From Bradyrhizobium sp. NFR13 (GTDB lineage: Bacteria > Pseudomonadota > Alphaproteobacteria > Rhizobiales > Xanthobacteraceae), in contig NZ_FOTP01000010.1 in the NCBI RefSeq assembly GCF_900114605.1, positions 62,001 through 126,000 on the forward strand: DNA of 64,000 nucleotides, read 5' to 3'. Each line of letters begins with the position of its first letter. Position 1 is the first letter of the stretch. The notes beneath the pieces are model-generated. The model saw only the letters and a list, made by a program, of their open reading frames with translations. It did no database searches and was not told the DNA's origin. A program made the translations under genes and the position numbers. Positions 7,045 to 57,266 of the stretch are shown here, piece by piece.

Positions 7045-7661
7045 GACGAAGGGTCCCTCGGTTTTCGACCGTTGGTCCGCAATGTGCGGGGTGTCGTGGA
7101 AATGAAGCAGTCAGCAGAAGTGCAATGGCAGAACGGCGAACACGGGGTTCGATGACTTTCTCGTTATCAAGTCCCGTTCCTTCAATTTGTAGGTATTATG
7201 TAAACCGTTGGTAAAGGTGCGACATTCTGGCTAAGCAAAAATGAACCGCAGGTCTCTTTTTTCGATGCCTGCAATATCAGTCAGTTAGCAACAATCATCT
7301 GAGGTTGACGACTGCTATTTCACTACTTGTGGAGGCAAGCCGACGCAGGGCAGTGACGAGATCGTGCCTCTAGGCAAAGCAGCGAATCAAAATACAACTC
7401 TTGGTTCCAGTCCCTGACATTGCTGATCTGAAGTTTATCCATCACCCAGCGCGAGAAACGCAGCGGCGCGCGAGCGCGACTGAACGTGCTGAATGGGAAA
7501 GAGAATCCAGCCAATACTCGCGTCGCCGATCAAAACCACCGCTCACGCCACCGCGACATAATGGCACACTGTTGTCCCATCTGTCGGCAACGTCCTTCAA
7601 ACGCAGGATGTCGAAATTTCCCTGTCCGGCGATAACGAGTCTTGGGCTTGGCAGGTGACCT
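7045..7661. other. 617-base divergent intergenic region
   Basis: This gap separates the minus-strand MCP gene from the plus-strand biosynthetic operon and must contain promoters for both. The segment about 7150-7330 is visibly richer in A and T than its surroundings. A clear ribosome-binding sequence AGGTGA occurs at 7652-7657, just before the thioesterase start. An 85-codon open frame (7401-7658) ends 3 bases before that start but has no domain features, so I do not call it. Confidence 0.5.
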
Positions 7662-8801
7662 ATGGCTCGGACTTATCTCCAACCGGAAGTAGCGGAACGA
7701 CCGGCCGATCAGCTTGTCAGCCAGAAGTTACGGCCTTCATGGGCGCAGGGACGCGAGCCGACGATCTATCAAATCGTGCAGGATGCCCGGGCCACGAGTT
7801 TCAACACCCGCAACATGCCTGGAGCCTCGGAGGAAGCCGACGATTTATCAAGGCTGCAGCGGTGCATCCAGGACATCGAAAGCGCCACCGGGCTTGAGTT
7901 ATCGATCGCACACTTCACGCTCGATATGACAGCCGCGGAAATGGTCAAGGCGATTGTGTCCGGGAAGGCAACCGTCAAAGCCGTAGGCGTGCAAGCCGAT
8001 ATGCGTCCAATCGTGTTCCTGTTGCCGGGGTCCCTCGGTTACGGTCCGAGCATGGCCGCTTTTGCAGCGGGGCTCGGCAAAATCGCCCGGGTCATCCCGA
8101 TCAAATACCCCGACCTCGCGAGCATCCTCGACGGAAACAGCACGGTCGCCTCCATGGCCGATGCCGCGATCGAGCAAATCCGCCGAAGCCAACCTGTCGG
8201 ACATGTTCGCCTTCTCGGCCATTCCCTTGGTGGTGTGGTGGCGTTCGAAGTTGCGGCGCGGCTGCTGGAGGCACGGCGGTCCATCAAGTTCCTGGGAATT
8301 CTCGATACAACGATCGTCAACGAGGGCCGCGATTATCGGGAGACACTCGCCCGAACGTTCCGGCGGCTCCGCGCCAATCGCGTGAACATGTCGCGGATAG
8401 CCTGCCGAGCACTCGCGAAGGTTACGGCTTCAATCGGTCGCGAGGCCCTCCTTGCTCGGATGCTTCATCGCTATACGCGAGGGAAGTTCAACGCCACCAG
8501 CTTCCGAATTAGACTTGAACTGCAAGAGGTGCTGCGGTCGCGAGCTTTCTACCAATGGCTGGCGTCACCCAAGCCGGCTTTGCCGATCGGGGCTACACTG
8601 TTTCGCTGCAACCGGGATGGAGCGCCGCGCGCGCTCGGCTGGGATTGCGCCCTCGCGAGCCTGGACGTGATCCCCATAGCAGGCACGCATATCGAGCTCG
8701 TCGTCGAGCCCTATCTCGCCACCAACCTCCCCTTGGTCGAGAGTGCGGTCGCGCAAACCTACACACCGGCCGAATTTTGCAAGCGGGAAACGCTGTCATG
8801 A
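7662..8801 (+). CDS. Thioesterase with degenerate carrier-like N-terminal segment
   Basis: A 379-residue alpha/beta-hydrolase of the type I thioesterase class that releases products from NRPS or PKS carrier proteins. The domain starts near residue 114 with PIVFLLPGSLGYGPS. The catalytic triad appears to be Ser188 in GHSLGG, Asp215 in GILDTT and His343 in AGTHIEL. Residues about 54-100 resemble the last two helices of a carrier domain (EADDLSRLQ, then SATGLELSIAHF), but aspartate stands where the phosphopantetheine serine of a DSL motif would be. The start has a good ribosome-binding site. The stop overlaps the next start in ATGA, so this is the first gene of a translationally coupled operon. 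Confidence 0.82.
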   Translation: MARTYLQPEVAERPADQLVSQKLRPSWAQGREPTIYQIVQDARATSFNTRNMPGASEEADDLSRLQRCIQDIESATGLELSIAHFTLDMTAAEMVKAIVSGKATVKAVGVQADMRPIVFLLPGSLGYGPSMAAFAAGLGKIARVIPIKYPDLASILDGNSTVASMADAAIEQIRRSQPVGHVRLLGHSLGGVVAFEVAARLLEARRSIKFLGILDTTIVNEGRDYRETLARTFRRLRANRVNMSRIACRALAKVTASIGREALLARMLHRYTRGKFNATSFRIRLELQEVLRSRAFYQWLASPKPALPIGATLFRCNRDGAPRALGWDCALASLDVIPIAGTHIELVVEPYLATNLPLVESAVAQTYTPAEFCKRETLS

Positions 8802-9805
8802 CCCTTGCTGCGCACATTCCGGCTGCGCGGGAGTTCGACAATAATGTATTGACGCTCGACCCCGCTGCCGAAGTCGAGAGGATCGTTCAGACGTTACGCC
8901 AGCAAGTCCTGGGCGTGTTGGGGCGCCGCGGCGCCGTTGTCGGTCTTTCCGGCGGTATCGACAGCTCCGTCGTCGCGGCGTTGTGCGTGCGTGCATTCGG
9001 CAGCGACAAAGTCCTGGGCATCTTCATGCCCGAGCACCATTCCTCGGACGATTCACTGAGGCTCGGCCGCAGTTGGGCCGCGCAGCTTGGCATCGACACC
9101 GTGTTGGAAGACATATCGCCCGCCCTCGAGGGGCTCGGCGCCTATCGCCGGCAGATCGAGGCAATCCGGACCGTCGTTCCCGAATATGACGAGGGCTGGA
9201 AATGCAAACTGGTATTGCCGTCGGTTCTCGCGAGCAACGGATTGAATATCACCCGCCTCACGGTTCAGAGCCGCGACGGCAGCACCCGCACCGTTCGTCT
9301 GTCGTCAAACGCCTATCTCCAGATCGTCGCCGCGACCAATTTCAAGCAGCGCGTCCGCAAGATGACGGAGTACTACCACGCCGACCGCCTCCGATACGCG
9401 GTCGCGGGCACACCGAACCGCCTCGAGCACGACCAGGGCTTTTTCGTCAAGCAGGGCGACGGAATCGCGGACGTGATGCCGATCGCCCATCTCTACAAGA
9501 CGCAGGTCTATCAGCTCTCGGAATATCTCGAGGTGGAGGAGGAGATCCGGCGCAGGCCACCGACCACGGATACGTTCTCCATGCCGCAGAGCCAGGAGGA
9601 ATTCTATTTCGCGCTGCCTTATCACCAGATGGACCTGTGCCTTTACGCGGTGAATCACGGGATTCCGTCAGACGAGGTCGCAGAAGTTACCGGACTGACA
9701 ACAGCCCAGGTCGATTTGGTATTCAGGGACATTGACGCCAAGCGTCGTGCGACGCACTACCTCCACGCACGGCCCTTGCTCGTCACTCAAGTATTCGAGG
9801 ACTGA
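8798..9805 (+). CDS. NAD synthase-like ATP-pyrophosphatase (synthetase domain only)
   Basis: A 335-residue member of the NadE family. These enzymes adenylate a carboxylate with ATP and replace AMP by ammonia to form an amide. The PP-loop SGGIDSS is at residues 51-57, and the later signature GTPNRLEHDQGFF with the following KTQVYQL is typical of NadE. The nitrilase glutaminase domain of glutamine-dependent NAD synthases is absent, and the ends extend past the roughly 275-residue bacterial ammonia-dependent form. A complete two-domain NadE is encoded at 55472-57223, so this copy is unlikely to be the housekeeping enzyme. It is coupled to the thioesterase by an ATGA overlap and sits 5 bases before the AsnB-like gene, which suggests an amidation step in the same pathway. 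Confidence 0.85.
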   Translation: MTLAAHIPAAREFDNNVLTLDPAAEVERIVQTLRQQVLGVLGRRGAVVGLSGGIDSSVVAALCVRAFGSDKVLGIFMPEHHSSDDSLRLGRSWAAQLGIDTVLEDISPALEGLGAYRRQIEAIRTVVPEYDEGWKCKLVLPSVLASNGLNITRLTVQSRDGSTRTVRLSSNAYLQIVAATNFKQRVRKMTEYYHADRLRYAVAGTPNRLEHDQGFFVKQGDGIADVMPIAHLYKTQVYQLSEYLEVEEEIRRRPPTTDTFSMPQSQEEFYFALPYHQMDLCLYAVNHGIPSDEVAEVTGLTTAQVDLVFRDIDAKRRATHYLHARPLLVTQVFED

Positions 9806-9810
9806 CCTGC

Positions 9811-11841
9811 ATGTGCGGTGTCGCGGGCATAGTGTCAGTAAGCGCCGCGGCAGGGCCACCCTCACGCGAAGCCTTGATGCGCATGCTCGGCGCGCTGGCC
9901 CATCGCGGCCCGGACGAGCGCGGCCTGTACCGGGACCAACGCGCGGGACTGGCACATGCCCGCTTGTCCATCATCGACATTTCGAGCGGCCAGCAGCCTC
10001 TCGCGGATGCGAGTGGCACGACATGGATCGTGTTCAACGGGGAAATCTTCAACTACGTTGAGTTGCGTGAGAAGCTGGTCGGGCTTGGTTACGGGTTCCG
10101 GACCCGCAGCGACACGGAGGTCATCGTCAACGCCTATCGTGCCTGGGGCGTGGACGCCTTCGAACGGATGGCCGGACAGTGGGCGCTCGCGATCTGGGAC
10201 TCGGTCACCCGCCGTCTGGTGTTGGCACGCGATCGCACCGGCATTTGCCCTTTGCATTTCTGCGAGCGCGAAGGTCGACTGTATTTCGCCAGCGAAGTGA
10301 AGGCCATCTTCGCGGCGGACGCAGCGATTCCCCGCGCCTTCGATCCAGTCGGCATCGATCAGACATTCACTCTGTGGACCGTTGTGCCGCCGCAGAACGT
10401 GTTTCAGGGGATCAAGGAGCTCATCCCGGGACATTTCCGCACTTATGAAAATGGCGAGGTTCGTGAGAAAGCGTTCTGGAAGCCGCGATATCCCGAATTG
10501 TCCAGTCCGCGCGACGACCAGTTTGCCGGTTCACTCGACGATGCCGTGACACAGGTGCGCAGCGCGCTCGAATCCGCGACGTCGCTTCGAATGGTCCGCT
10601 CCGACGTAAGCGTCGGTAGCTATTTGTCCGGCGGCCTCGACAGTTCGCTTATTGCGGCAATGGGATGCCACTTTGCCGGCGAACGCTTCCAGACCTTCTC
10701 ACTGCGTTTTGCTGACGCTGAATATGACGAGACCGAGTTCCAACGATTGGTTGCCCGTGTCACCGGTAGCGAACACCACGAAGTGGTGGTTTCGCGCAAT
10801 GACATCGCCGAGATTTTTCCGCAGGTCATCTACCACACCGAGCGTCCGATCTTGAGAACGGCGCCGGCGCCGCTGTTCCTTCTGTCGCGCCTGGTGCGCG
10901 CCTGCGGCGTCAAGGTTGTGCTGTCCGGCGAAGGCGCCGACGAAATGTTTGCCGGCTACGATCTCTTTCGCGAAGGCAAGGTCCGCCGGTTCTGGGGCCG
11001 GCAACCCGCGTCGACACGCCGCGCGCGCCTGCTTGAGCGTCTCTACCCTTATCTCACACGCTCACCGGTCACGCAGCGAGCAATGGCCCGGCAGTTTTTC
11101 GGGCGCAATCTGTCGGAGCACGCCGCGCCGGGCTTCGCGCATGACACCCGCTGGCGAACGACCAGCGGCATCAAACGACTGTTTTCCAGCGACATGTTCG
11201 CGGAATCGGCGAAGCACGATGCGGTCTCCGACCTGATCGCCGGTCTGCCTCCGGAATTCAGGCAATGGAGCTCCCTTGCGCAGGATCAATATCTTGAAAT
11301 CCAGACACTGCTGTCGGGATATCTCCTGTCCTCTCAGGGTGACCGAATGCTCATGGCTCATTCAGTTGAAGGACGCTTTCCTTTCCTTGACGAGGACGTG
11401 GTCGCGCTGGCGAATTCGCTGCCGCCAGCCTACAAGCTCCGCGTCCTTGACGAGAAGCACGTTCTGAAGCGCGTCGCACAACCGATCGTGCCGTCGGACA
11501 TCATCGCCCGCAAGAAGCAGCCGTTCCGCGCGCCCGACGCCCTATGTTTCGTTGGCCGCGATACGCCCGCCTATATCGACGACGCGCTTTCAGAAACGGC
11601 TATTCGCGAAGCAAACGTCTTCGATCCCGACGCGGTTGCGCGCCTGCGGAACAAGTGCCGGACACAGGCCGCAACCGGCAACGGCAATCTCTCGAATTCC
11701 GACAACATGGCGATGGTCGGCGTTTTATCGACCCAGCTCCTCCACCAGCAATTCGTCGCGAGCCGTCCTGGTGGACGCCACGCTCTGGAGCTGACCGTTG
11801 ATGTCGATCGCGAGCACCGGGTTGAGGGGGCCCTTTCCTGA
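9811..11841 (+). CDS. Glutamine-dependent asparagine synthase-like amidotransferase
   Basis: A 676-residue AsnB-family enzyme. An N-terminal class II glutaminase domain (about residues 2-210) begins MCGVAGI with the nucleophile Cys2 exposed after methionine removal, and contains HRGPDERG, RLSIIDISSG and FNGEIFNY. The C-terminal synthetase domain carries the PP-loop SGGLDSS at 273-279 and the conserved LSGEGADEMFAGYD segment. It is somewhat longer than E. coli AsnB (about 554) and near the 620-650-residue form common in surface-polysaccharide and secondary-metabolite clusters. Gene position suggests it amidates a pathway intermediate, or cyclises one as beta-lactam synthetases do, rather than making free asparagine. 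It overlaps the next gene by one base (TGATG). Confidence 0.9.
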   Translation: MCGVAGIVSVSAAAGPPSREALMRMLGALAHRGPDERGLYRDQRAGLAHARLSIIDISSGQQPLADASGTTWIVFNGEIFNYVELREKLVGLGYGFRTRSDTEVIVNAYRAWGVDAFERMAGQWALAIWDSVTRRLVLARDRTGICPLHFCEREGRLYFASEVKAIFAADAAIPRAFDPVGIDQTFTLWTVVPPQNVFQGIKELIPGHFRTYENGEVREKAFWKPRYPELSSPRDDQFAGSLDDAVTQVRSALESATSLRMVRSDVSVGSYLSGGLDSSLIAAMGCHFAGERFQTFSLRFADAEYDETEFQRLVARVTGSEHHEVVVSRNDIAEIFPQVIYHTERPILRTAPAPLFLLSRLVRACGVKVVLSGEGADEMFAGYDLFREGKVRRFWGRQPASTRRARLLERLYPYLTRSPVTQRAMARQFFGRNLSEHAAPGFAHDTRWRTTSGIKRLFSSDMFAESAKHDAVSDLIAGLPPEFRQWSSLAQDQYLEIQTLLSGYLLSSQGDRMLMAHSVEGRFPFLDEDVVALANSLPPAYKLRVLDEKHVLKRVAQPIVPSDIIARKKQPFRAPDALCFVGRDTPAYIDDALSETAIREANVFDPDAVARLRNKCRTQAATGNGNLSNSDNMAMVGVLSTQLLHQQFVASRPGGRHALELTVDVDREHRVEGALS

Positions 11842-13409
11842 TGCATGGTCCTGTACCGCTCCTGCATGATTACCTCATCCACTCCGCCCGTCATCTCGGT
11901 GGAAAGGTGGCGCTGGTATGTGGCAAGCATCGCGTCACCTATGGCGAGCTTGAGGCGCGCTCCAACGCAATCGCCAACCACCTGGTCGCGAGCGGAGTCG
12001 AACGTGGCGATCGGGTGATTATCTTCGCCGACAACACTGTCGAGACCGTCGTCAGTTTCTGGGCCGTGCTGAAGGCGAATGCCGTGGTGTGCATCGTCAA
12101 TCCGCTCACCAAACGCGACAAGCTTGGCTACCTGCTCAATGATTGCCAACCGGCGGCGCTCATCACCGACAAGCATCTCTTGCCGATATTCAAGGAGCCC
12201 ACGCAGGCATGCCGATCATTGCGCCGGGTGATCGTTTCCGGGTCGATCGACGATGCCGAGCTGACCGAGCTACCCCATGCAATACGCTGGAGCGAGGCAG
12301 GCGCCGCCAGACACGACGCACCTCCGGCGCGCAGCTGCATCGATATCGATCTCGCGGCCATCGTCTACACCTCCGGATCATCGGGAGATCCCAAGGGCGT
12401 GATGCTGACGCACCGGAACATGCTGACCGCGTGCACGTCGATCGCCTCATATCTCGCGCTACGCGAAGATGAGGTCATTTTGAACGTTCTGCCGCTCGCC
12501 TTCGATTACGGCCTGTATCAAATGATCATGGCGTTTCGTACGGGCGCGCGGCTTGTCCTCGAACGGTCATTCGCTTTTCCGGCACAGATTCTCGGGCTTA
12601 TCGCCGATGAGCGGGTGACCGGCCTGCCCGGCGTGCCGACGATCTTCTCGACGCTATCGGGGCTCAAGTCGATCAAGGAGCACGATCTCTCGAGTATCCG
12701 CTATGTCACGAACACCGGTGCTGCGCTGCCGATGAAGCACATTCGTCTGCTGCAGGATCTATTCCCGGACGCGCGCATCTATTCCATGTACGGCCTCACT
12801 GAATGCAAGCGCTGCACCTTCCTCCCCCCGGAGGATATCGACCGAAAGCCGTCAAGCGTAGGAATCGCCATCCCGAATACCGAGATGTGGATTGTCGACG
12901 AGCGCGACAGACGTGTGGGCCCCGACGTGGTCGGCCAGCTTGTCATTCGCGGCGCGACGGTGATGAGAGGCTATTGGGGCAAGCCGGAGGCCACGGCCAG
13001 GAAACTCAAACCCGGTCCGCTCCCAGGCGAGCAGGTTCTGTACACCGGTGACTACTGCCGGATGGACGCGGAAGGCTACCTCTACTTCGTTGGCCGCAGC
13101 GACGAGATCATAAAGTCGCGAGGAGAGAAGATCGCTCCCAAGGAAGTGGAGAACGTACTGATGGATATTGCGGGCGTGAGGGAAGCCGCGGTGATTGGCG
13201 TTCCCGACGAGCTCCTCGGGCAGGCGGTTAAAGCGTTTGTCGTTATCGAGCAGGACATAACACTGAGCGAGAAGCAGCTTCAGAAAGAGTGCCAGCAACG
13301 CCTCGAAAGCTTCATGGTGCCAAAATGTATTGTGATCGTGCCCAGCCTGCCGCGAACGAATACAGCAAAACTCAACAAGAGAGCACTGCAGGAGTCGATA
13401 TCCGAATGA
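11841..13409 (+). CDS. AMP-forming acyl ligase (ANL superfamily)
   Basis: A 522-residue adenylate-forming enzyme that activates a carboxylic acid as acyl-AMP and loads it on CoA or a carrier protein. The P-loop YTSGSSGDPKG is at 176-186. The aromatic/Glu motif SMYGLTECKR, the YTGDYCRMD hinge region, GRSDEIIKSRGEKI and a C-terminal lysine within NTAKLNKRAL complete the set of core motifs. The segment TECKRCTFLPPEDIDRKP resembles ligases of exosortase/exopolysaccharide-associated clusters. The carrier protein gene lies 38 bases downstream and is the likely acceptor. The activated acid cannot be read from the sequence. Confidence 0.9.
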   Translation: MHGPVPLLHDYLIHSARHLGGKVALVCGKHRVTYGELEARSNAIANHLVASGVERGDRVIIFADNTVETVVSFWAVLKANAVVCIVNPLTKRDKLGYLLNDCQPAALITDKHLLPIFKEPTQACRSLRRVIVSGSIDDAELTELPHAIRWSEAGAARHDAPPARSCIDIDLAAIVYTSGSSGDPKGVMLTHRNMLTACTSIASYLALREDEVILNVLPLAFDYGLYQMIMAFRTGARLVLERSFAFPAQILGLIADERVTGLPGVPTIFSTLSGLKSIKEHDLSSIRYVTNTGAALPMKHIRLLQDLFPDARIYSMYGLTECKRCTFLPPEDIDRKPSSVGIAIPNTEMWIVDERDRRVGPDVVGQLVIRGATVMRGYWGKPEATARKLKPGPLPGEQVLYTGDYCRMDAEGYLYFVGRSDEIIKSRGEKIAPKEVENVLMDIAGVREAAVIGVPDELLGQAVKAFVVIEQDITLSEKQLQKECQQRLESFMVPKCIVIVPSLPRTNTAKLNKRALQESISE

Positions 13410-13447
13410 TCTGATCGTGACTTTTCTTTACGCATTGGAGTTGAAAC

Positions 13448-13714
13448 ATGCTGCTAGTCAGGGAACCGCTCGAGACCTATCGAAGGCAAGTTCGCGATTT
13501 CTTGCTGTCGAACTTCTACATTGCTGAAGCCAACTCGCTTGAGGTCGACACATCGCTGCTCGATCAAGGCATCATCGACTCGACGGGAGTGCTCGAGGTC
13601 ATCGGGTTCATCGAGGAGACCTTCGGCATCACGGTCGAAGATAGCGAGCTCTTGCCTGAGAACCTCGATTCCATCGAGGGAATTTCACGCTTCGTCATGA
13701 GCAAGAAGAGCTGA
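13448..13714 (+). CDS. Acyl/aminoacyl carrier protein
   Basis: An 88-residue single carrier domain. The phosphopantetheine attachment serine is Ser45 in GIIDSTGVLE, followed by the helix VIGFIEETFGI and the acidic EDSELLPENLDSI, the normal four-helix carrier pattern. The DST rather than DSL motif is frequent in D-alanyl- and aminoacyl-type carriers. It is the last plus-strand gene of the operon and the obvious partner of the preceding ligase. AGTTG before ATG is a weak ribosome-binding site. It is clearly different from AcpXL at 28417. Confidence 0.9.
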   Translation: MLLVREPLETYRRQVRDFLLSNFYIAEANSLEVDTSLLDQGIIDSTGVLEVIGFIEETFGITVEDSELLPENLDSIEGISRFVMSKKS

Positions 13715-13762
13715 TGCTTGTCTGCAGCGTCCAAACCGCGTCACGAACGCCACCGTAGCGGT

Positions 13763-14458
13763 TCAGGTTGTTGCGCCTTTGCGGTATCCCATAACGACGC
13801 GGCCTTCGCCCGTTTCGTTCGTCACCACCCTGATGCTCTCGTAGCTCTTGTTGCGCTCAAGAAGGGTTGTCACCTGCCGCTCCTGACCGGAGCCGACCTC
13901 GAACAAGAGGATGCCGCCCGGCCGCAGATATCGGACTGCGTCCTTCGTAACCCGCATATGGATGCTCAGCCCGTAAGGACCGGCTGCGAATGCCTCACGT
14001 GGTTCGAGTTCGAGCAAGGGGGCACGGTCGCCTCTGAGCCGCGTTTCCGAGATATAGGGTGGGTTGCAGACGATCAGGTCGATGGTCCCGTCCAGCGACA
14101 GATCTGAAAAAGCGTCGAACAGATCGCCCTGAAGCACCGACATGCGTTGCGTGAGTCCGTGATAGGCGACATTGCGACGTGCGACAGTGACACATCCATC
14201 GGTTAGGTCGCTCGCCCAGACGCGTGCGTCGGGGATCTTGAGAGCGATGGCGCAGGCCAGATTGCCTGCGCCGCAGCACATGTCGATCACCCGCGGCTCC
14301 GCCACGTTTAACTGACGCAGAGCATCAACAGCGCTCGCGCAAAGCAATTCGGTTTCCGGCCGGGGGACGAGCGCACCGGGTGCAACCAACAGCTCTATTC
14401 CCATAAATAGAGTGCGTCCCTTATCGTAAGCTTTGGCGACGTTGATCACTTCGCTCAT
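13763..14458 (-). CDS. PrmC/HemK-like N5-glutamine methyltransferase, catalytic domain only
   Basis: A 231-residue SAM-dependent methyltransferase. It shows VPRPETELL, the PrmC entry motif, then the SAM-binding VIDMCCGAGNLACAIA and the NPPY motif (VCNPPYISE) that binds a planar amide or amine nitrogen. Authentic PrmC has about 70 extra N-terminal residues forming the release-factor-binding helical domain, and that part is missing here. The chosen start MSEVINVAK has AGGG about 8 bases upstream; another ATG at 14512 would add 18 residues. The gene faces the biosynthetic operon head-on, 48 bases from the carrier gene. It may modify the cluster product or be unrelated. Confidence 0.8.
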   Translation of the reverse strand: MSEVINVAKAYDKGRTLFMGIELLVAPGALVPRPETELLCASAVDALRQLNVAEPRVIDMCCGAGNLACAIALKIPDARVWASDLTDGCVTVARRNVAYHGLTQRMSVLQGDLFDAFSDLSLDGTIDLIVCNPPYISETRLRGDRAPLLELEPREAFAAGPYGLSIHMRVTKDAVRYLRPGGILLFEVGSGQERQVTTLLERNKSYESIRVVTNETGEGRVVMGYRKGATT

Positions 14459-14852
14459 TGCGGTCACCCTGCCTGGACGTTGCGCGACAACTGTTGCATG
14501 CGGCGTGATCATGCACCGGACAGAACCATGCCCTGTCCATGTGGCAATGGCGGTAGTCACAATGAGGTAGATGGGCCGATAGCGGCAATGCAGTTGTTTT
14601 CGGCAGCGCTCCTTACGCATTTTGGCGATGCGGCGCCCCACCGGCTGCGTGGTCATCCGACGACGCAGACCTCGCTCTGACTTCGGCCACTTCGAGGCTG
14701 CGTGGTATTTGCCTGTCCCGCTTTTCAAGTTCTCATGAACGGGGCCGCGGCGATCCGGCACCCTGTCCGGCGAGCTAACAATTCGTGACGATGGCTTCGT
14801 TGGCCGTTTGCTGCTATGGCGTTCTTGGTATCAACGAGGCTGAGGCCTTACG
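14459..14852. other. 394-base divergent intergenic region
   Basis: This gap lies between the PrmC-like gene and the YdcF-like gene, which diverge from it. The minus-strand frame stays open well upstream of the preferred methyltransferase start, but the extension is arginine-rich and lacks PrmC helical-domain features. No RNA gene or clear repeat is seen. Confidence 0.4.
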
Positions 14853-15653
14853 TTGTTTTTTATATTGTCCAAGACTCTTGGCAACGCACTTGCGCCGGTC
14901 AATTTCCTGGTCGGCCTCGGTGTGCTCGGCGCGGTTCTTTCGGCAACACGGCTTTCTTCGCTTGGCCGCAGGCTTATGATCACAGCCGCCGTGCTGCTTG
15001 CGGTCGCCGCGTTTTCACCGGCTGGAAGATTGCTGCTCTATCCGCTTGAATCGCGCTTCCCGCCCTGGGATCCGGGACAGCGTGCGCCTGACGGCATCAT
15101 CGTGCTCGGCGGCTCGATCGACGCCGATGTTTCGCTTGCGCGTGACACGCCGGTCGTCCGTCGCTCGCCCGACCGCATCATCGCAGCCGCAGCGCTGGCG
15201 CGACAATATCCGAATGCACGTGTGGTGTTTACCGGCGGCAGTCCGAGGCTGGTGTCGGATGCCAGAGAGGCCGATTACGCTGCCGCGCTCTTCGCAAGCC
15301 TTGGAGTCGACAGGTCGCGTTTGATCATGGAGCGACAATCGCGCAACACACATGAGAACGCCGAATTCACCAAAGCGCTCGTGGCGCCGAAGCCGGGCGA
15401 GCGCTGGGTTCTGGTGACATCAGCGTTCCATATGCCGCGATCGATTGGCTTATTTCGCAAAGCCGGATTTCCTGTCGAGGCTTATCCGGTCGACTGGTGG
15501 GTCGGCGGTCGGCGCGCCGCACTTTCCTTCACCACCCTCGCCCTTGACGGGCTGTCGCGGACCGACATTGCGGTGCGCGAATGGTTCGGGCTCATTGCCT
15601 ATCGAGTCACGGGGCGGATCGATGACTTGCTGCCGAGGCCCGATGCACATTGA
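14853..15653 (+). CDS. YdcF/ElyC-like (DUF218) membrane-anchored protein
   Basis: A 266-residue protein with two N-terminal membrane helices (about residues 8-30 and 38-62) and a DUF218 domain. The domain motifs are GIIVLGGSID at about 85-94, the ARVVFTGGS strand, ESRNTHEN-like ERQSRNTHENAEF, and the VTSAFHMPRSIGLF stretch. Related E. coli proteins (ElyC, SanA, YdcF) act at the cell envelope, ElyC in peptidoglycan and lipid-carrier homeostasis. The start is a TTG codon preceded by GAGG. It is needed to keep the first hydrophobic helix, since no ATG fits. The gene is monocistronic. Confidence 0.82.
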   Translation: MFFILSKTLGNALAPVNFLVGLGVLGAVLSATRLSSLGRRLMITAAVLLAVAAFSPAGRLLLYPLESRFPPWDPGQRAPDGIIVLGGSIDADVSLARDTPVVRRSPDRIIAAAALARQYPNARVVFTGGSPRLVSDAREADYAAALFASLGVDRSRLIMERQSRNTHENAEFTKALVAPKPGERWVLVTSAFHMPRSIGLFRKAGFPVEAYPVDWWVGGRRAALSFTTLALDGLSRTDIAVREWFGLIAYRVTGRIDDLLPRPDAH

Positions 15654-15840
15654 TTCTCCGGGCCCGAGATAAGGCAAGCGCCGCAGGCCGTGGGAAGCCA
15701 AAAGCCATTTATGGCCACGCCGTCGCAGGTAATGCCCGGACGCCATTCGAGCCCGGTGTGGACCATTGTTGTGGACCACCGGATTTTCTCGAAAAGGCTG
15801 CGGGTTAGAAGTCTTTGATCTACAAAGGGAAATTCGAGTG

Positions 15841-15914
15841 TGGCTGGGGAACTAGGATTCGAACCTAGACAAACAGAGTCAGAGTCTGTTGTGCTACCGT
15901 TACACCATTCCCCA
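15841..15914 (-). tRNA. tRNA-Gln (CTG anticodon)
   Basis: A 74-nt cloverleaf with encoded CCA. The acceptor stem TGGGGAA pairs with TTCCCCA followed by the discriminator G. The anticodon arm ACAGA-CTCTGAC-TCTGT puts anticodon CTG at 15880-15882, and the T arm contains GGTTCGAATCC. It decodes CAG. Confidence 0.97.
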
Positions 15915-16101
15915 AACGATTCAGAGACTTACAGAAAAATCCAGTCTGGAATCGGTCGGAACAGAGATGCGCATCTCGTTCGGGCGCGTTCTAGCCCGTC
16001 CGCCGGACAAAGCGCAAGGCCTCTGGACGGAAATGACAGCTCATTGACACCACTGGCAATGGACAGGCCACACAGAGCGCGGCCTGCCCGGTCGCCTCGC
16101 C

Positions 16102-17523
16102 CTATTCGCCCGGCCCACCAACCGGGATGGCCATCGGCTCCGGCGCCAGGCGCCTGCTGAGCGCCAGATAGACGCCGCCGCCCACGACGATGCCCGCCAG
16201 CCAGCTCAGATCCGCGCCGCCGAGAAGGTTGATCGAGATCGGCCCCTGCAACGCAGGCACCAGGCCATCCTGGAACAGCCAGGTGGCGATCAGGCCTGCG
16301 AAGAACGCGATCATGCCGCTCCAGTTGATATCGCCATAGATGCTGGTCTCCGGCGACTTGTAGAGTTCGGCGATGTCGATCTGGCTCTTCCGCCTGACGA
16401 AGAAGTCGGCCAACACCACCCCGGCATAGGGGCTCATCCACATCAGCAGGCTGATCAGCCAGTTATCGAACGCCTTGGCAAAGGACGGCGCGAAGATGAA
16501 ATACACCGTCACCGCATAGCCCGCGATGCCGACGATCAGCGCCAGTGCCGTGCGCGAGAAGCGAACGCCCATGCTGAGCGCCGCGAGCGCCGACGAATAG
16601 ACGTTGAGGATGTTGGTGGCGATCGGCCCGTGCAGCACCAGCAGCAGCACGAGAATGCTGGCGATGCCACCGAACACGGCCGAGACCATCTTGGCCGGAT
16701 CGGTATCGAGCGTCACCGACGCGATGGTGGCGCCGAGAATGGCCAGCCACACCGACGGCACGAACATGCCGACATAGCTGTACCAGAACACGGCTTTCGA
16801 CGAGGTCGAGCGCGGTACGAAGCGCGAATAGTCCGACGCCCAGGTCACCCAGGAAATGCCCCAGCCGACGCCGACGGCGGTCATCAGCAGCGACAGCATT
16901 GCCAGATGCGGCCCCGGCGGCAGCGACGTTGTGTGATTCCAGTTGACGACACCGGGCTGGCTCCAGGCCAGCACGCTCATCAGCACCATGATCACCACCG
17001 TGACCGGCACGGTGTATTTCTCGAAGGTGCGGATCGCATAGAAACCGTAAGTGCCGATCACCACCTGCGTCACCATCACGATGGTGATCACCACGAGATT
17101 GGCGAACCAGCTATCCGCGATGCCAAACTGGCCGAGAATGGCCATCGAGATCTTCACCGGGAAGTATGTGTTCACGCCGATCCAGCCGAGCGTCATCAGG
17201 AACATCAACAGGCTCGGCAGATAGGCGCCGCGGCGCCCGAAGGCCGACCGCGCGAGTACCATCTGGTTGACGCCGGTCTTGTGGCCCATGACCGTGAAGG
17301 CGGCGAAGATCGCGGAGCCCGCCGCATTGCCGATGACGATGACCGCGATGGTTTCCCACAGACCGAGCTTGAGAATGATACCAAGCGCGCCGAGGGCCCA
17401 GTTCACCGGCGCGATATTGGCGCCGGCCCAGATCCACATCTGCTGCGGCCCGGTGGAATCCCGGTCGGCATCGGGGATCGGTTCGATACTGTGGATGTCT
17501 GCCCGCAACTCAGAGTTAGTCAT
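16102..17523 (-). CDS. NCS1-family nucleobase/cation symporter
   Basis: A 473-residue inner-membrane permease of the NCS1 family (cytosine, uracil, allantoin, hydantoin and related cyclic amides), with about 12 hydrophobic helices. The start of the transport core, QMWIWAGANIAPVNWALG, and the SWVTWASDYSRFVP segment are NCS1 landmarks. The ATG at 17523 follows a GGGGGCGAGC ribosome-binding sequence; a GTG at 17535 would add four residues. It is the last gene of the aromatic-catabolism operon, 72 bases after the dioxygenase gene, so it probably imports a ring compound or related acid. The typical NCS1 substrates contain nitrogen, which is a clue about the pathway substrate. Confidence 0.88.
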   Translation of the reverse strand: MTNSELRADIHSIEPIPDADRDSTGPQQMWIWAGANIAPVNWALGALGIILKLGLWETIAVIVIGNAAGSAIFAAFTVMGHKTGVNQMVLARSAFGRRGAYLPSLLMFLMTLGWIGVNTYFPVKISMAILGQFGIADSWFANLVVITIVMVTQVVIGTYGFYAIRTFEKYTVPVTVVIMVLMSVLAWSQPGVVNWNHTTSLPPGPHLAMLSLLMTAVGVGWGISWVTWASDYSRFVPRSTSSKAVFWYSYVGMFVPSVWLAILGATIASVTLDTDPAKMVSAVFGGIASILVLLLVLHGPIATNILNVYSSALAALSMGVRFSRTALALIVGIAGYAVTVYFIFAPSFAKAFDNWLISLLMWMSPYAGVVLADFFVRRKSQIDIAELYKSPETSIYGDINWSGMIAFFAGLIATWLFQDGLVPALQGPISINLLGGADLSWLAGIVVGGGVYLALSRRLAPEPMAIPVGGPGE

Positions 17524-17595
17524 GCTCGCCCCCACGTCAGAAACAACCTGGGGTCAACAAAGCAAGACGCGTACCAATCCCGGCAGAGCGGTTTG

Positions 17596-28707: not shown

Positions 28708-29181
28708 ATGAACCTCGAATATTTTCACCTGATCGACCGTATCACCGACCTCAATGTGGCCGAACGGACGATCACGGTTGAAGCGAACGTCCCGGAAAAG
28801 AGCACCATCTTCGAGGGCCACTTCCCGGGCTACCCCTTGATGCCCGGCGTGCTGCTGATCGAGTCGATGGCGCAGACTTCGGGCTGGCTGCTGATCGCAC
28901 TGATGAAGTTCGAGCGCATGCCGTTCCTGGCTGCGGTGAAGGAAGCCAAGATGCGCACCTTCATCACACCCGGCACGAAGCTGGACATCAACGCCAGCGT
29001 GCTGCACGAGGGCGACGGCTTCTTCATGACCACGGTCAAGATCAAGGTCGATGGCAAGCTGACCTGTAACGCGCAGCTCACCTTCAAGACCGTTCCATTC
29101 CCTCATCCGGATCTGCGTGGACACATGGACATCGTGGCCAAGCGCATCGGATTTCCGCTACAGGCGATCACCAATGGCTGA
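28708..29181 (+). CDS. fabZXL: 3-hydroxyacyl-ACP dehydratase for VLCFA synthesis
   Basis: A 157-residue hot-dog-fold dehydratase of the FabZ type serving the very long chain acid of lipid A. The catalytic pair is His38 in FEGHFPGYPLMPG and Glu52 in LLIESMAQ. It begins 9 bases after acpXL and overlaps the start of fabF2XL by 8 bases, so translation is probably coupled. Housekeeping FabZ is expected elsewhere, near lpxD and lpxA. Confidence 0.93.
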   Translation: MNLEYFHLIDRITDLNVAERTITVEANVPEKSTIFEGHFPGYPLMPGVLLIESMAQTSGWLLIALMKFERMPFLAAVKEAKMRTFITPGTKLDINASVLHEGDGFFMTTVKIKVDGKLTCNAQLTFKTVPFPHPDLRGHMDIVAKRIGFPLQAITNG

Positions 29182-30379
29182 AACCCGTCCTGTCGTTACC
29201 GAGCCGGTCGAAGCGTGGATCACCGGCATCGGCCTCGCGTCCTCACTCGGCGAAGGCCCCGACGCGCATTGGGAAGCCCTCAACGCCAAACGCGTGAATG
29301 TCGACGAGACGAGCTTCGCGCCTTACGTCGTGCATCCGCTGTCGCCGCTGACCTATGACGCGCAGATCCCGAAGAAAGGCGATCAGCGTCAGATGGAAGC
29401 CTGGCAGCGCATCGGGACCTATGCCGCCGGCCTCGCGCTCGATTCTGCCGGCGTGAAGGGCAACAAGGACATCCTGTCGAAGATGGACATGATCGTCGCC
29501 GCCGGTGGCGGGGAACGCGATCTCAACGTCGATTCCAGCATCCTGAACGCGGAAGCCTATGGCAGCGCGACACCGAGCTATCTGAACGAGAAGCTGCTTA
29601 ACGATCTTCGTCCCACACTCTTTCTCGCGCAGCTTTCCAACCTGCTCGCCGGCAATATTGCCATCGTGCATGGCGTCACCGGCTCGTCCCGCACCTTCAT
29701 GGGTGAGGAAGCTGCCGGCGTGGACGCGGTCCGCATCGCGCTTGCGCGTATCGCGGACGGACAGAGCGACATCGCCCTTGTCGGCGCCGGTCACAACGGC
29801 GAGCGCAAGGACATGTTGCTGCTGTATGAATTCGACAATTTCAACCTGCGCGACAAGCATTCGTCGGTCTGGGATCGCAAGGACCATAGCGGGTTTGCGC
29901 TTGGCTCCGGCGGTGCCTTCCTCGTCATCGAATCGAAGGCCCATGCGGAAGCGCGGGGCGCCAAGCCATTCGCGCGGCTGAAGACCGTCATTGCCGATCG
30001 CGCCCGCCGCAAGGACGCCGGCGAAGTGACCGCTTCGCTCGACAAACTTTGGACCAATCTCGGTCCGCTGAAGCAGGATGCTGCGATCATCACCGGCGCG
30101 ACTGGTGCGGAGCCTGCGACCTCGGAAGAACTGAGCTTCCTCAAGAAGCACGCCGATGTCGCCGTGCGTGCGACGGGCACGACATTCGGCCATGCGGTCG
30201 AGACGCAATTTCCGCTCGGCATCGGCCTTGCGGCACTCGCGATCTCGCGCGGAGCGCTTTATCCGCCCAACGATTCTACTGGCGTCGAGATTGAAATGTC
30301 GAAGCCGCCTTCCCAGATTGTCGTGATCGGGACGGGTCACTGGCGCGGCGAAGGCATGGCGCTGGTTGAAGCCATTTAA
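29174..30379 (+). CDS. fabF2XL: 3-ketoacyl-ACP synthase-like subunit FabF2XL, active-site cysteine absent
   Basis: A 401-residue KAS II-like thiolase-fold protein of the lipid A very long chain acid locus. Aligned by eye with FabF1XL, the nucleophile Cys176 corresponds to Ser172 (GVTGSSRTFMG), and the first catalytic histidine of the NAHGTGT motif corresponds to alanine (ITGATGAEP). The second histidine region (TTFGHAVET) is kept. This pattern recalls the chain-length factor of aromatic PKS ketosynthase pairs, so FabF2XL may be a non-condensing partner of FabF1XL. That role is an inference. The start MAETRPVV overlaps fabZXL by 8 bases. Confidence 0.9.
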   Translation: MAETRPVVTEPVEAWITGIGLASSLGEGPDAHWEALNAKRVNVDETSFAPYVVHPLSPLTYDAQIPKKGDQRQMEAWQRIGTYAAGLALDSAGVKGNKDILSKMDMIVAAGGGERDLNVDSSILNAEAYGSATPSYLNEKLLNDLRPTLFLAQLSNLLAGNIAIVHGVTGSSRTFMGEEAAGVDAVRIALARIADGQSDIALVGAGHNGERKDMLLLYEFDNFNLRDKHSSVWDRKDHSGFALGSGGAFLVIESKAHAEARGAKPFARLKTVIADRARRKDAGEVTASLDKLWTNLGPLKQDAAIITGATGAEPATSEELSFLKKHADVAVRATGTTFGHAVETQFPLGIGLAALAISRGALYPPNDSTGVEIEMSKPPSQIVVIGTGHWRGEGMALVEAI

Positions 30380-30383
30380 AGTC

Positions 30384-30434
30384 TGAGCATGATCTTGTTC
30401 GAAGGCCGGTATCCGCTTTTCGGGATCATGCTCA
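30384..30434. repeat. Palindromic intergenic repeat of the GAGCATGATC type
   Basis: A 51-base imperfect palindrome with perfect 11-bp outer arms TGAGCATGATC / GATCATGCTCA. It lies between fabF2XL and fabF1XL. The core includes ccggtatccgctttt. This type of element is scattered in intergenic regions of Bradyrhizobium and Rhodopseudomonas genomes. It could fold in the mRNA and stabilise or attenuate the downstream message. Confidence 0.8.
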
Positions 30435-30467
30435 AGTCAAGCGGCCCGCATGGGCGACGGAGAGAGC

Positions 30468-31748
30468 ATGTCAGCAACGCGCGATAAATTCGGCCGACCG
30501 ATCGTTGTCGTCACCGGCATGGGAGTCGCGACCTCGCTGGGCGCAGGCAAGGCTGACAACTGGGCCAAGCTCACGGCCGGCGAATCCGGCATCCGCACCA
30601 TCACCCGCTTCCCCATCGAGGGCATGAAGACCACGATGGCCGGCACTGTGGATTTCGTCGCCGTCGATCCGTTCTCCTCCACCGATCTTTCCGAGAAGCT
30701 CGGCGAGATGGTTGCCGAGGAAGCGATCGCGCAGGCCGGTATTGGCCGCAAGGGCGACTTCCCCGGCCCGCTCTTCCTTGCCGTTGCGCCCGTTGAGGTG
30801 GAATGGCCGCAGCGCCAGGCGCTCGCCAAGGCCGCCGGTGCGAACACCGACATCAATTACGACACGTTGCTGCGCGCCGCCGGCTCCGGCGGTTTCACCG
30901 AGTATCATCGCCGCTTCCTGTTCGGCTCGGTGGCCGACAGCCTGGCTGACACATTCGGCACCAAGGGCTCGCCGATCTCGCTATCGACGGCCTGTGCATC
31001 GGGCGCGACCGCGATCCAGCTCGGTGTGGAAGCGATCCGCCGCGGCGAAGCCGATGCAGCGCTCTGCGTCGGCACCGATGGCTCGGTCAATCCGGAAGCA
31101 TTGATCCGTTTCTCGCTGCTCTCGGCGCTGTCGACCAACAATGAGACGCCCGCCAAGGCCTCCCGCCCGTTCGCCAAGAACCGCGAAGGCTTTGTGATGG
31201 CTGAAGGCGCTGGTGCGCTGGTGCTGGAGAGCCTGGAATCGGCGACCGCGCGTGGTGCGAAGATCCTCGGCGTCGTGGCCGGCTGCGGCGAGCTCGCGGA
31301 TTCCTTCCACCGCACCCGCTCCAGCCCGGACGGCAAGCCGATCATCGGCTGCGTGAACAATGCGCTGATCGATGCCAGCATGACCGTCGACAAGATCGAC
31401 TACATCAACGCCCACGGCACCGGCACGCCGGAAAACGACAAGATGGAATATCTCGGGATTTCCACCGTGTTCGGTGAGCTCGCCAAGACCATTCCTGTCT
31501 CGTCCAACAAGTCCATGGTCGGCCACACCCTCTCCGCCGCGGGCGCGGTCGAAGCCGTGTTCTCGCTGCTGACCCTGGAACATCAGCGGATCCCGCCGAC
31601 GATCAATTACGATGTTCCCGATCCGGCCATTCCGTTCGACGTGGTTCCCAATACCGCCCGCGACGCAAAGGTCACCGCCGTGATGTCGAATTCTTTCGGC
31701 TTTGGCGGCCAGAATGCCTCGCTGATCCTCACCGGCGAGCCCGTTTAG
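30468..31748 (+). CDS. fabF1XL: 3-ketoacyl-ACP synthase FabF1XL
   Basis: A 426-residue KAS II enzyme that condenses malonyl-ACP with the growing chain on AcpXL. All three catalytic residues are visible: Cys176 in STACASGAT, the histidine of NAHGTGTPEND and that of SMVGHTLSAAG. The start MSATRDKFGRP has GGAGAG a few bases upstream; an ATG at 30450 lacks such a site. It is separated from fabF2XL by a palindromic repeat and followed by adh2XL after 93 bases. Confidence 0.95.
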   Translation: MSATRDKFGRPIVVVTGMGVATSLGAGKADNWAKLTAGESGIRTITRFPIEGMKTTMAGTVDFVAVDPFSSTDLSEKLGEMVAEEAIAQAGIGRKGDFPGPLFLAVAPVEVEWPQRQALAKAAGANTDINYDTLLRAAGSGGFTEYHRRFLFGSVADSLADTFGTKGSPISLSTACASGATAIQLGVEAIRRGEADAALCVGTDGSVNPEALIRFSLLSALSTNNETPAKASRPFAKNREGFVMAEGAGALVLESLESATARGAKILGVVAGCGELADSFHRTRSSPDGKPIIGCVNNALIDASMTVDKIDYINAHGTGTPENDKMEYLGISTVFGELAKTIPVSSNKSMVGHTLSAAGAVEAVFSLLTLEHQRIPPTINYDVPDPAIPFDVVPNTARDAKVTAVMSNSFGFGGQNASLILTGEPV

Positions 31749-31841
31749 GGCTCCCTGCGCCCTTGGCCGGTTGACGCGCCAGCGTTAACCGGCGATACGC
31801 AAGCCACACAAATTCAACGCCTTACTCGGAGACACGGTGTC

Positions 31842-32864
31842 ATGCGTGCGCTCAATCTTGCTGCTGAACGCGAGCTCATCACCGCCGACGTTCCCCCGCC
31901 CCCGCCCCCCGCAGCCGGCGAAGTGCAGATCCGCGTCAAGGCGGTCGGCCTCAACCATATCGACGTCTGGGGCTATCGCGGCATGGCCTTCGCCAAGCGC
32001 AAGCTGCCGATCACCATTGGCGCTGAAGCATCGGGCGAGATCGCCGCGGTCGGCGAAGGCGTCACCAATTTCAAGCCGGGCCAGAAGGTCGCCATGTATG
32101 GCGCGCTGACCTGCGGCCACTGCAAAGCCTGTCAGGAAGGCCGTGACAATTTCTGCGAAAACGTCGGCGGTCTCTACGGTTTCCATATCGACGGCTTTGC
32201 GCGCGAGTTGATGAACATGCCGGCGCGGCTGGTGATCCCCGCCCCCGACAAGCTCTCGTTCCGCGACATCGCCTGCGCGCCGATCGCGTTCTCCACCGTG
32301 CAGCACATGCTGTTCGATAACGCCAAGCTGCAGCCGGGTGAGACCATTCTCGTCCATGCTGGCGGCTCGGGCATCGGCACGGTCGCCATCATGATGGCGA
32401 AGAAAATCGGCTGCACCGTCATCACCACCGTGGGCGACGACAGCAAGTTCGAGGGCGTGAAGAAGCTCGGCGCCGACTACGTGATCAATTATCGCAAGGA
32501 TCGCTTCGAGGGTGAAACGCGCAAGATCACCAAGAAGAAGGGCGTCGATGTCGTGTTCGAGCATGTTGGTGCCGACACGTTCAACGGCTCGCTGCTGGTG
32601 ATGAAGCGCGGCGGCCGTCTGGTCACCTGCGGCTCGACCTCGGGCCCGAGCACGACCATCAATCTGATGCAGTTGTTCCAGCAGCAGTACCGCATCTTCG
32701 GTTCGTTTGGCGCCTCGATGCGCAATATCTCCGAGAGCCTCGACAAGATGGCTGACGGCATGCTGCCTGTGATCGACACCGAAGTGCCGTTCGACGACGT
32801 CGCTACCGCGCTGAAGCGGATGGAGACGCGTCAGGTGTTCGGCAAGATCATCGTCCACTTCTGA
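31842..32864 (+). CDS. adh2XL: Zinc-dependent alcohol dehydrogenase-like protein Adh2XL
   Basis: A 340-residue medium-chain dehydrogenase/reductase. The proton-relay GHE-like segment reads GAEASGEI, the structural-zinc cysteines are in GALTCGHCKACQEGRDNFC, and the nucleotide-binding loop reads HAGGSGIGTVAIMMAK. In rhizobia this gene always sits between fabF1XL and lpxXL, and it is thought to act as an enoyl- or ketoreductase during very long chain acid synthesis; its exact reaction is not established. Its stop overlaps the lpxXL start by one base (TGATG). Confidence 0.9.
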   Translation: MRALNLAAERELITADVPPPPPPAAGEVQIRVKAVGLNHIDVWGYRGMAFAKRKLPITIGAEASGEIAAVGEGVTNFKPGQKVAMYGALTCGHCKACQEGRDNFCENVGGLYGFHIDGFARELMNMPARLVIPAPDKLSFRDIACAPIAFSTVQHMLFDNAKLQPGETILVHAGGSGIGTVAIMMAKKIGCTVITTVGDDSKFEGVKKLGADYVINYRKDRFEGETRKITKKKGVDVVFEHVGADTFNGSLLVMKRGGRLVTCGSTSGPSTTINLMQLFQQQYRIFGSFGASMRNISESLDKMADGMLPVIDTEVPFDDVATALKRMETRQVFGKIIVHF

Positions 32865-38512: not shown

Positions 38513-38653
38513 GGAAACGGCCTCGACAACTTCTGGATGGCAAGTCCTTGAACGACAAATCTCTGAACAGCGGGGCAGCGAGGCCGTTCCCGGCCCCGAT
38601 GATCACCCCCATTCTAGCGCAAATCCGGGAACCGGACATGACAAAAGGTGAGT

Positions 38654-40555: not shown

Positions 40556-40726
40556 TCTGCTCGTAACGCCTCTGGACAATCCGGACCCGGCTATGGCGCG
40601 CCGGGCAATGCCAGTCAACCGGGACACTAGCCTATCCTGCCGCAGATCGCTCATCCGGAGCGCGGCAAAAATCGGCATTGCCCAGCAAAAAAAGAGGCGC
40701 GAGCAGTAAAAAAGGAATTGACTGTT

Positions 40727-57223: not shown

Positions 57224-57266
57224 GGAAACATCCAAGCCTACCGGCTCACCCTTCGCAACTGCGGGA

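Follow-up and report, generated by a model that had tools for sequence, protein, structure and literature searches.

Amide groups on exported glycans have been described in Porphyromonas gingivalis, where, in the available part of one study, the linking sugar of the Wbp/Vim pathway is converted to an amide by the AsnB-type enzyme WbpS, the uronic acid itself being amidated, and the GNAT-type protein VimA is the proposed enzyme for attaching an amino acid to an amino sugar of the exported glycan (PMC7468200). The authors of that study note that exosortase loci have similar gene sets and that exosortase substrates are joined to a compound not yet identified (PMC7468200, same passages). A ligase with its own acyl carrier protein (ACP) is known from Sinorhizobium meliloti; the accessible text reports that the ligase SMb20650 is cotranscribed with the ACP SMb20651 on pSymB and that coexpression of the two in E. 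coli gives acylated SMb20651 (PMC7232532). In the excerpts available from two other papers, the function of SMb20651 was called open in 2017 (PMC5686131), and SMb20650 was among the genes down-regulated under Myxococcus predation (PMC10315480). Here, we describe a set of genes that brings together an AsnB-type enzyme, a NadE-like enzyme, a ligase and an ACP, at positions 7662 to 14458 of a 64,000-nucleotide stretch of Bradyrhizobium sp. NFR13 (assembly GCF_900114605.1, contig NZ_FOTP01000010.1, positions 62,001 to 126,000, forward strand; the whole stretch is called the window below). We conclude that this cassette is a real co-inherited unit and propose, tentatively and at a little under an even chance, that it is an ACP-tethered amidation cassette that would make a small amide, tied in many relatives to exported glycans. 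Its genes are as follows.

7662..8801, plus strand: thioesterase, 379 aa (PF00975 2.7e-17; Ser188 and His343 kept)
8798..9805, plus strand: NadE-like amide synthase of the PRK00876 subfamily, 335 aa (NF002048 515.7 bits)
9811..11841, plus strand: AsnB-type glutamine amidotransferase, 676 aa (TIGR01536 538 bits; Cys2, SGGLDS)
11841..13409, plus strand: AMP-forming ligase, predicted ACP loader, 522 aa (PF00501 4.4e-92; Arg324, Asp222)
13448..13714, plus strand: acyl carrier protein, 88 aa (PF00550 3.9e-06; Ser45 in DSTG)
13763..14458, minus strand: PrmC-like methyltransferase, 231 aa, with NPPY (TIGR03534 172.2 bits; likely start near 14458)

The open reading frames and families at these positions match the order given in the original prediction, which had been made from the DNA without database searches and had read the plus-strand genes as a thioesterase, a NadE-like protein, an AsnB-like protein, a ligase and a carrier. 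The coordinates also confirm its statement that the first four genes are joined by start-stop overlaps or a 5-base gap: the thioesterase and NadE-like genes overlap by 4 bases, 5 bases separate NadE-like from AsnB, AsnB and ligase overlap by 1 base, and a 38-base gap precedes the ACP gene. The PrmC-like gene is convergent with these five. Catalytic features can be read at SGGIDS (residue 51) in the NadE-like protein, at Cys2 and SGGLDS (residue 273) in AsnB, at Ser45 within DST in the ACP, at Ser188 in the thioesterase and at NPPY in the PrmC-like protein.

An alignment of the NadE-like protein was scanned against 84,980 species genomes, which confirmed at least 570 relatives, and we examined the loci of the best 80 of these 570; 58 of the 80 had full flanks, 18 of the 58 being Mesorhizobium. 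Presence in a locus rests on BLAST scores against the window proteins, and the gene calls in relatives are our own picks of open reading frames. The titles of the loci span Alpha-, Beta- and Gammaproteobacteria, Myxococcota, Acidobacteria, Planctomycetota, Nitrospira, Bacteroidetes, Armatimonadetes and the actinobacterium Nocardioides; many loci come from metagenome-assembled genomes, and one titled Bacillus subtilis (L099), with the same layout as Pseudochrobactrum L105, is probably mislabelled. Of the 80 loci, 63 have all four core families (NadE-like, AsnB, ligase and ACP), as do 50 of the 58 full-flank loci, a count that takes in distant or opposite-strand ligases; by strict criteria (same strand, within 8 kb, ligase at least 45% identical) the figures were 51/80 and 39/58. 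These counts indicate that the cassette is not a product of chance. NadE-like and AsnB genes occurred together in 72 loci, NadE-like and ligase genes in 73, and AsnB was always on the NadE strand (72/72), within 300 bases of NadE in 46/72; some of the missing core genes are due to early contig ends. The order of the genes varies among loci (T-N-B-L-a, B-a-L-N, N-L-M-a-B and others), and this shuffling argues for a joint function. Pairwise protein distances were correlated (r 0.59-0.75; 0 of 2000 permutations reached the observed value for each of seven pairs), in part because of the common descent of the organisms.

These data support the earlier proposal of one carrier-protein unit with two amide-forming ATP enzymes, and show the unit to be co-inherited. 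The co-occurrence search that it had suggested for the PrmC-like gene found a homologue with the cassette in 32 of the 80 loci; in 11 of these the homologue shares the strand of NadE. The claim that the set matches no named pathway agrees with the NCBIfam models scanned, none of which names the five genes as a set, and our search of the literature, which took in few subscription papers, turned up no account of the cassette as one unit. The original prediction had further staked its novelty on two points, that the neighbourhood be conserved and that relatives not be annotated as a known exopolysaccharide or lipid pathway. The neighbourhood proved conserved, and no relative examined is annotated as a named pathway of either type; the claim of novelty is weakened and has not fallen.

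We compared the cassette with its counterparts in a set of 18 genomes of the genus, which we call Tardiphaga after the nearest named relative, L038 (95% identity in NadE); L038 and G009, with contigs of equal length and nearly equal dN/dS rows, are probably one genome and were counted once. A NadE-like protein above the NF002048 cut-off is encoded by five of these 18 genomes and by 6 of 61 in a wider set. Comparison of the window with its close relatives G009, G001 and G016 gave dN/dS values of 0.10-0.11 (NadE), 0.12-0.14 (AsnB), 0.13-0.15 (ligase), 0.00-0.06 (ACP) and 0.06-0.15 (PrmC-like gene), close to those of the adjacent CheR and MCP genes (0.05-0.14). Purifying selection acts on the four-gene core. 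The thioesterase gave 0.28-0.43, that is, relaxed selection, which is weaker yet not absent. The rows for G014 are partial (NadE 0.14; AsnB 0.16 over 69 residues), and its ligase row of 0.50 is read as a match to the upstream adenylation domain, the contig coming to an end.

The NadE-like protein scored above the NF002048 (PRK00876 subfamily) cut-off (515.7 versus 313 bits). Canonical NadE proteins of the searched genomes match this profile only in two flanking pieces, at about 27-108 and 171-302, which indicates an insertion of about 62 residues that is specific to the NadE-like family. The SGGxDS P-loop and an E-x-D-x-G-F-F-V-K core are invariant in 27 aligned members. Its AlphaFold model (pLDDT 87.6) matches NH3-dependent NAD synthetases with TM scores (target length) of up to 0.88 and also matches the NMN synthetase 3fiu of F. 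tularensis, so that the fold evidently takes other substrates. Fold, P-loop and catalytic motif are thus held in common with the NH3-dependent NAD synthetases and with 3fiu, but the NadE-like protein has the extra insertion, and the window encodes a separate glutamine-dependent NAD synthetase at 55472-57235. The portions available of the literature on PII and NadE do not treat the NadE-like family.

The AsnB-type protein lies above the TIGR01536 cut-off (538 versus 267.1 bits), as does a second AsnB of the window genome above the family cut-off. This second AsnB-like gene (G000:C6:1096479-1098212) is about 7.5 kb from a sugar transferase gene (G000:C6:1105676-1106251), and the two perhaps form a separate polysaccharide locus. 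The PrmC-like protein falls below the TIGR03534 cut-off (172.2 versus 199.1), with a match that starts at profile position 50; it is without the N-terminal part of PrmC, and a canonical PrmC is encoded elsewhere in the genome. Some homologues are longer (276 residues in L046, for example) and may keep the N-terminal part.

Arg324 of the ligase is present in 77 of 77 aligned sequences and Asp222, in the motif FDYG, in 54 of them; we take this Asp to be the amino-group binder of aminoacyl-adenylating domains and use it as a lead only. Alignments to gramicidin synthase for a specificity code gave solely these FDYG and Arg observations, and we name no substrate for the ligase, since the invariant Arg is also found in the more distant ligases of these loci. 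The DSTG motif of the ACP is at least 95% conserved in 71 aligned sequences. SMb20650 and SMb20651 are relatives of the window ligase and ACP, and the S. meliloti locus (L037, strain LMB1), which we infer from gene order and numbering to be SMb20649-20652, also carries AsnB and NadE, arranged AsnB-ACP-ligase-NadE in a row, an order other than that of the window. Acylation of the cognate ACP by the ligase was found by others for the S. meliloti pair and is predicted by analogy for the window pair. In three Nitrospira loci (L094:5720-8857, L096:5757-8900 and L106:5717-8854) the ligase frame is about 1045 residues long with two adenylation-domain matches; judging from these matches, these are probably two fused ligases.

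Two kinds of protein could take the product off the carrier. The thioesterase was found in 26 of the 80 loci, a protein of about 370 residues in 13 and both together in none, which is what alternative routes of release from the carrier would predict; the separation also follows lineage. Three of four scanned members of the 370-residue family had no Pfam match and one had a sub-threshold GNAT match, and the family profile had no match in PDB by sequence. A model of the L113 member (alignment of 12; pLDDT 84.2) matches N-myristoyltransferases (E ~1e-14, TM ~0.5), and on this predicted structure we regard the protein as a tandem GNAT.

The surroundings of the cassette point to polysaccharides in a part of the relatives. 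We screened for assembly genes within 9 kb by BLAST with nine seed proteins, five of which were counted (four confirmed by Pfam, the kinase seed being named from sequence). At least one of the five families was present in 23 of the 58 full-flank loci, 14 of these 23 being Mesorhizobium, and each of the 23 matches at least one of the four Pfam-confirmed seeds. The sugar transferase seed matched in 8 of 40 non-Mesorhizobium full-flank loci versus 1.2% expected (binomial 2.7e-8), an expectation that is a rough, unmatched control from the density in the window genome (4 per 6.2 Mb), over loci that are not independent. In a tally of 118 of the 228 neighbouring open reading frames from 22 of the 80 loci, hand-chosen and mostly nearest, the leading Pfam families were sugar-nucleotide epimerases (6), GNATs (6), glycosyltransferases (4), sugar transferases (3) and exosortases (3); the NCBIfam tally was similar, with response regulators in addition. 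Two Nitrospirota loci, L085 and L096, have an exosortase above the XrtW cut-off, 31 and 13 bases beyond NadE respectively; the ligase of L085 is only 34% identical. With assembly genes near 23 of 58 full-flank relatives and exosortase W adjoining in two Nitrospirota loci, the original prediction, which had set the exopolysaccharide link aside because the exported parts were missing here, underrated that link. We also observed a family of about 275 residues, secreted in appearance, beside the cassette in 11 loci (L046:7714-8544, L050:4807-5628 and nine more) of Beta- and Gammaproteobacteria, Nitrospira and others; Pfam gave no match for the single member that was scanned.

Each of the known systems that we compared differs from the cassette. 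The P. gingivalis Wbp/Vim pathway is its nearest functional analogue, with AsnB-type amidation and GNAT-type transfer in common, but the cassette uses an ACP, a ligase and a NadE-like enzyme; by term search 'acyl carrier' does not occur in PMC7468200, and its examined passages contain no ligase or NadE-like step. XrtA/PEP-CTERM clusters have the same broad ligase and amidotransferase families, and some relatives of the cassette adjoin exosortases. We rejected membership in that system: the window ligase and AsnB are below its cut-offs (TIGR03098, 490.8 versus 592.35 bits; TIGR03108, 402.6 versus 816.9 bits), and the window genome is without a match to the exosortase that the XrtA system has. 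To our knowledge, a NadE-like enzyme is not part of XrtA/PEP-CTERM clusters. The amidotransferase can also be likened to that of the N-acetylglutaminylglutamine amide (NAGGN) pathway of rhizobia, in which an AsnB-type enzyme makes the terminal amide. Membership was rejected here as well, the window AsnB being under the TIGR03104 cut-off (364.5 versus 570.1 bits), and as far as we know that pathway uses no ACP.

For the window cassette we propose the following steps, of which we infer the substrate, the order, the methylation and the receiver. The AMP-forming ligase would charge Ser45 of the ACP with an acid that probably bears a second carboxylate or an amino group. AsnB would draw ammonia from glutamine and, together with the NadE-like enzyme, a putative ATP-dependent amidating enzyme derived from NAD synthetase and carrying a new insertion, would convert carboxylates of the acid to amides. 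Judging from its family, the PrmC-like enzyme may then methylate an amide nitrogen; we know of no precedent for a PrmC-type enzyme that acts on a small-molecule amide. In this lineage the thioesterase would free the product, and in some relatives the tandem GNAT that stands in its place would pass the group to an amine; the receiver in many relatives would probably be an amino sugar of an exported polysaccharide or of a protein-anchoring glycan. We can imagine a bolder version, which we think rather unlikely to hold as a whole: the two amidating enzymes would act in sequence, taking one carboxylate past the amide (to an amidine, for example) or amidating both ends of a dicarboxylic amino acid, and PrmC-derived N-methylation would follow, so that surface glycans or exosortase anchors would receive a charged or methylated substituent from a widespread, undescribed ACP-tethered pathway.

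Several results weigh against an ACP-tethered amidation cassette tied to glycans. No polysaccharide-assembly gene was found near the window cassette, exosortase PF09721 had 0 matches in the window genome, whose four sugar-transferase matches lie on other contigs, and the BLAST screen gave no assembly match within 9 kb in 35 of the 58 full-flank loci. Neither thioesterase nor tandem GNAT was matched in 41 of the 80 loci, or in 24 of the 58 full-flank loci, so that about half have no evident means of release. The PrmC-like gene is absent from 48 of the 80 loci. Three loci with full flanks (L101, L108 and L113) had no AsnB match by BLAST, the ligase is only 31-41% identical in 15 of the 73 loci in which it was counted, and Asp222 is missing in 23 of the 77 aligned ligases. 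The S. meliloti locus had no thioesterase, GNAT or PrmC-like match, and its ligase is described, in the available part of the source, as predicted to act on long-chain fatty acids, a role that would suit a lipid pathway (PMC7232532).

The alternative that survives best concerns the first gene. In Mesorhizobium and in G014 NadE is preceded by a gene for a protein of about 900 residues (904 in G014; 911 in L042), and the L042 protein contains adenylation (PF00501, PF13193) and thioesterase (PF00975) domains by Pfam; its carrier region had no Pfam match and is named from a GGDSL motif. Aligned to the G014 and Mesorhizobium proteins, the window protein retains the first residues, a carrier region that has lost the serine motif and the entire thioesterase domain, whereas about 525 residues, including the adenylation domain, are gone. 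G009 and G016 share the window form, and G001 is also without the carrier region, its carrier remnant giving a dN/dS of 1.39 over 30 residues; a thioesterase without the other two domains is found in Bradyrhizobium (L060, L066) and in Phreatobacter-like loci (L059, L062). From these alignments, the window gene encodes a truncated adenylation-carrier-thioesterase protein of the nonribosomal peptide synthetase (NRPS) type. The earlier description of a plain thioesterase, in a window with no NRPS module, therefore has to be revised: the first gene is a remnant of a protein that is intact in Mesorhizobium and in one Tardiphaga relative, where an adenylation domain, a carrier serine and a thioesterase occur in one protein, as they do not in the window.

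Such a protein could belong to a pathway for a free, secreted NRPS-like small molecule, in which it and the ligase/ACP pair would each load an acid, amides would be made and the thioesterase would release or cyclise the product. We consider this possible but not likely. The intact protein of about 900 residues lies directly upstream of NadE in Mesorhizobium and G014, the thioesterase is retained in all five genus genomes that have the cassette, and several Mesorhizobium loci have an ABC exporter-like gene downstream (named from sequence, not from a family search). Nonetheless, four of the five Tardiphaga copies no longer have the adenylation domain, the thioesterase is under relaxed selection where the core is constrained, the thioesterase is present in just 26 of 80 loci, none of them titled outside Proteobacteria, and polysaccharide functions top the neighbour tally. 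The loss of the adenylation-carrier part here, while the ligase/ACP pair stays constrained, means that this part is dispensable in this lineage and the separate pair is not.

In a lipid pathway, which we regard as improbable, a fatty acid would be loaded on the ACP and the amide enzymes would make a fatty amide or an amino-acid lipid head group. The ACP has a weak similarity to the ornithine-lipid ACP model (51.2 bits, cut-off 130), and the tandem GNAT of relatives resembles N-myristoyltransferases; the fatty-acid description of the S. meliloti ligase given above points the same way. In the accessible passages, however, SMb20650 fails to complement fadD mutants for growth on oleate (PMC7232532). 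Two amidating enzymes would have no obvious role on a fatty acid, and the FDYG motif of the ligase has an Asp that we take to be typical of aminoacyl adenylation.

It is very improbable that the operon is decaying in Tardiphaga and has no present function. The first gene has lost its adenylation domain and carrier serine, the thioesterase is relaxed and the distribution is patchy (5 of 18 genus genomes), but the NadE, AsnB, ligase, ACP and PrmC-like genes are open, with dN/dS of 0.00-0.15, like the CheR and MCP neighbours. We give least credence of all, and in effect rejected, the view that redundant housekeeping copies of NAD synthetase, asparagine synthetase and release-factor methyltransferase are clustered by chance: relatives are automatically annotated as NAD(+) synthase and asparagine synthase and the NadE fold and catalytic motif are intact, but the genome has a separate canonical NadE, a canonical PrmC and a second AsnB, the NadE insertion is family-specific, the PrmC-like protein is without its N-terminal part, and the genes are linked to the ligase and ACP across phyla. 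A defence system was also rejected, as PADLOC gave no match for five of the six proteins and methyltransferase-type matches only for the PrmC-like protein (best mad2, 2e-20).

To the right of the cassette lie two further features, one within the same block and one at its border.

14853..15653, plus strand: DUF218/ElyC-like envelope protein (PF02698), same block, role uncertain
15841..15914, minus strand: tRNA-Gln, whose 3' end is the right border of the 8.3-kb block

G002, which is without the block, has 442 bases in place of the window's 8.3 kb (7500-15840), and similarity restarts exactly at the 3' end of tRNA-Gln; gain here and loss in G002 both fit this alignment. A copy of the DUF218/ElyC-like protein with 94-100% identity was found solely in G000, G001, G009 and G016 among the 18 genus genomes, and these are the genomes with the cassette at this site; some copy is present in 17 of 18, the ordinary copy being 47-52% identical. 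We rejected an island with att sites, since a second copy of 14-30 bases of the tRNA-Gln end was not found in the window. No integrase was noted among the genes looked at, and no search aimed at integrases was made. On the other side of tRNA-Gln, G001 (L140) has about 3.9 kb of extra DNA with the equivalent of window 15880-15915 at both of its ends; because this DNA is flanked by both copies of that stretch, the tRNA-Gln site may be an insertion hotspot.

Elsewhere, the statement that the window has no transporter does not hold, as it contains an AcrB-type pump (7-2727), an NCS1 permease (16102-17535), two Kup transporters and one ABC exporter. The Kup-type potassium transporters are in tandem at 36590-40678. 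At 29117-32864, two ketoacyl-synthase genes are followed by a zinc alcohol dehydrogenase, which presumably resembles the very-long-chain fatty acid cluster of rhizobial lipid A; this may be a second carrier-protein pathway in the window.

Taken at the level of annotation, the 'housekeeping' labels of nadE and asnB hide a specialised cassette that is found in many phyla, so that automatic annotation is misleading for these genes here. If the product is a glycan substituent or an exosortase anchor, the cassette would provide a handle on the unidentified compound to which exosortases presumably attach proteins (PMC7468200, in the part available).

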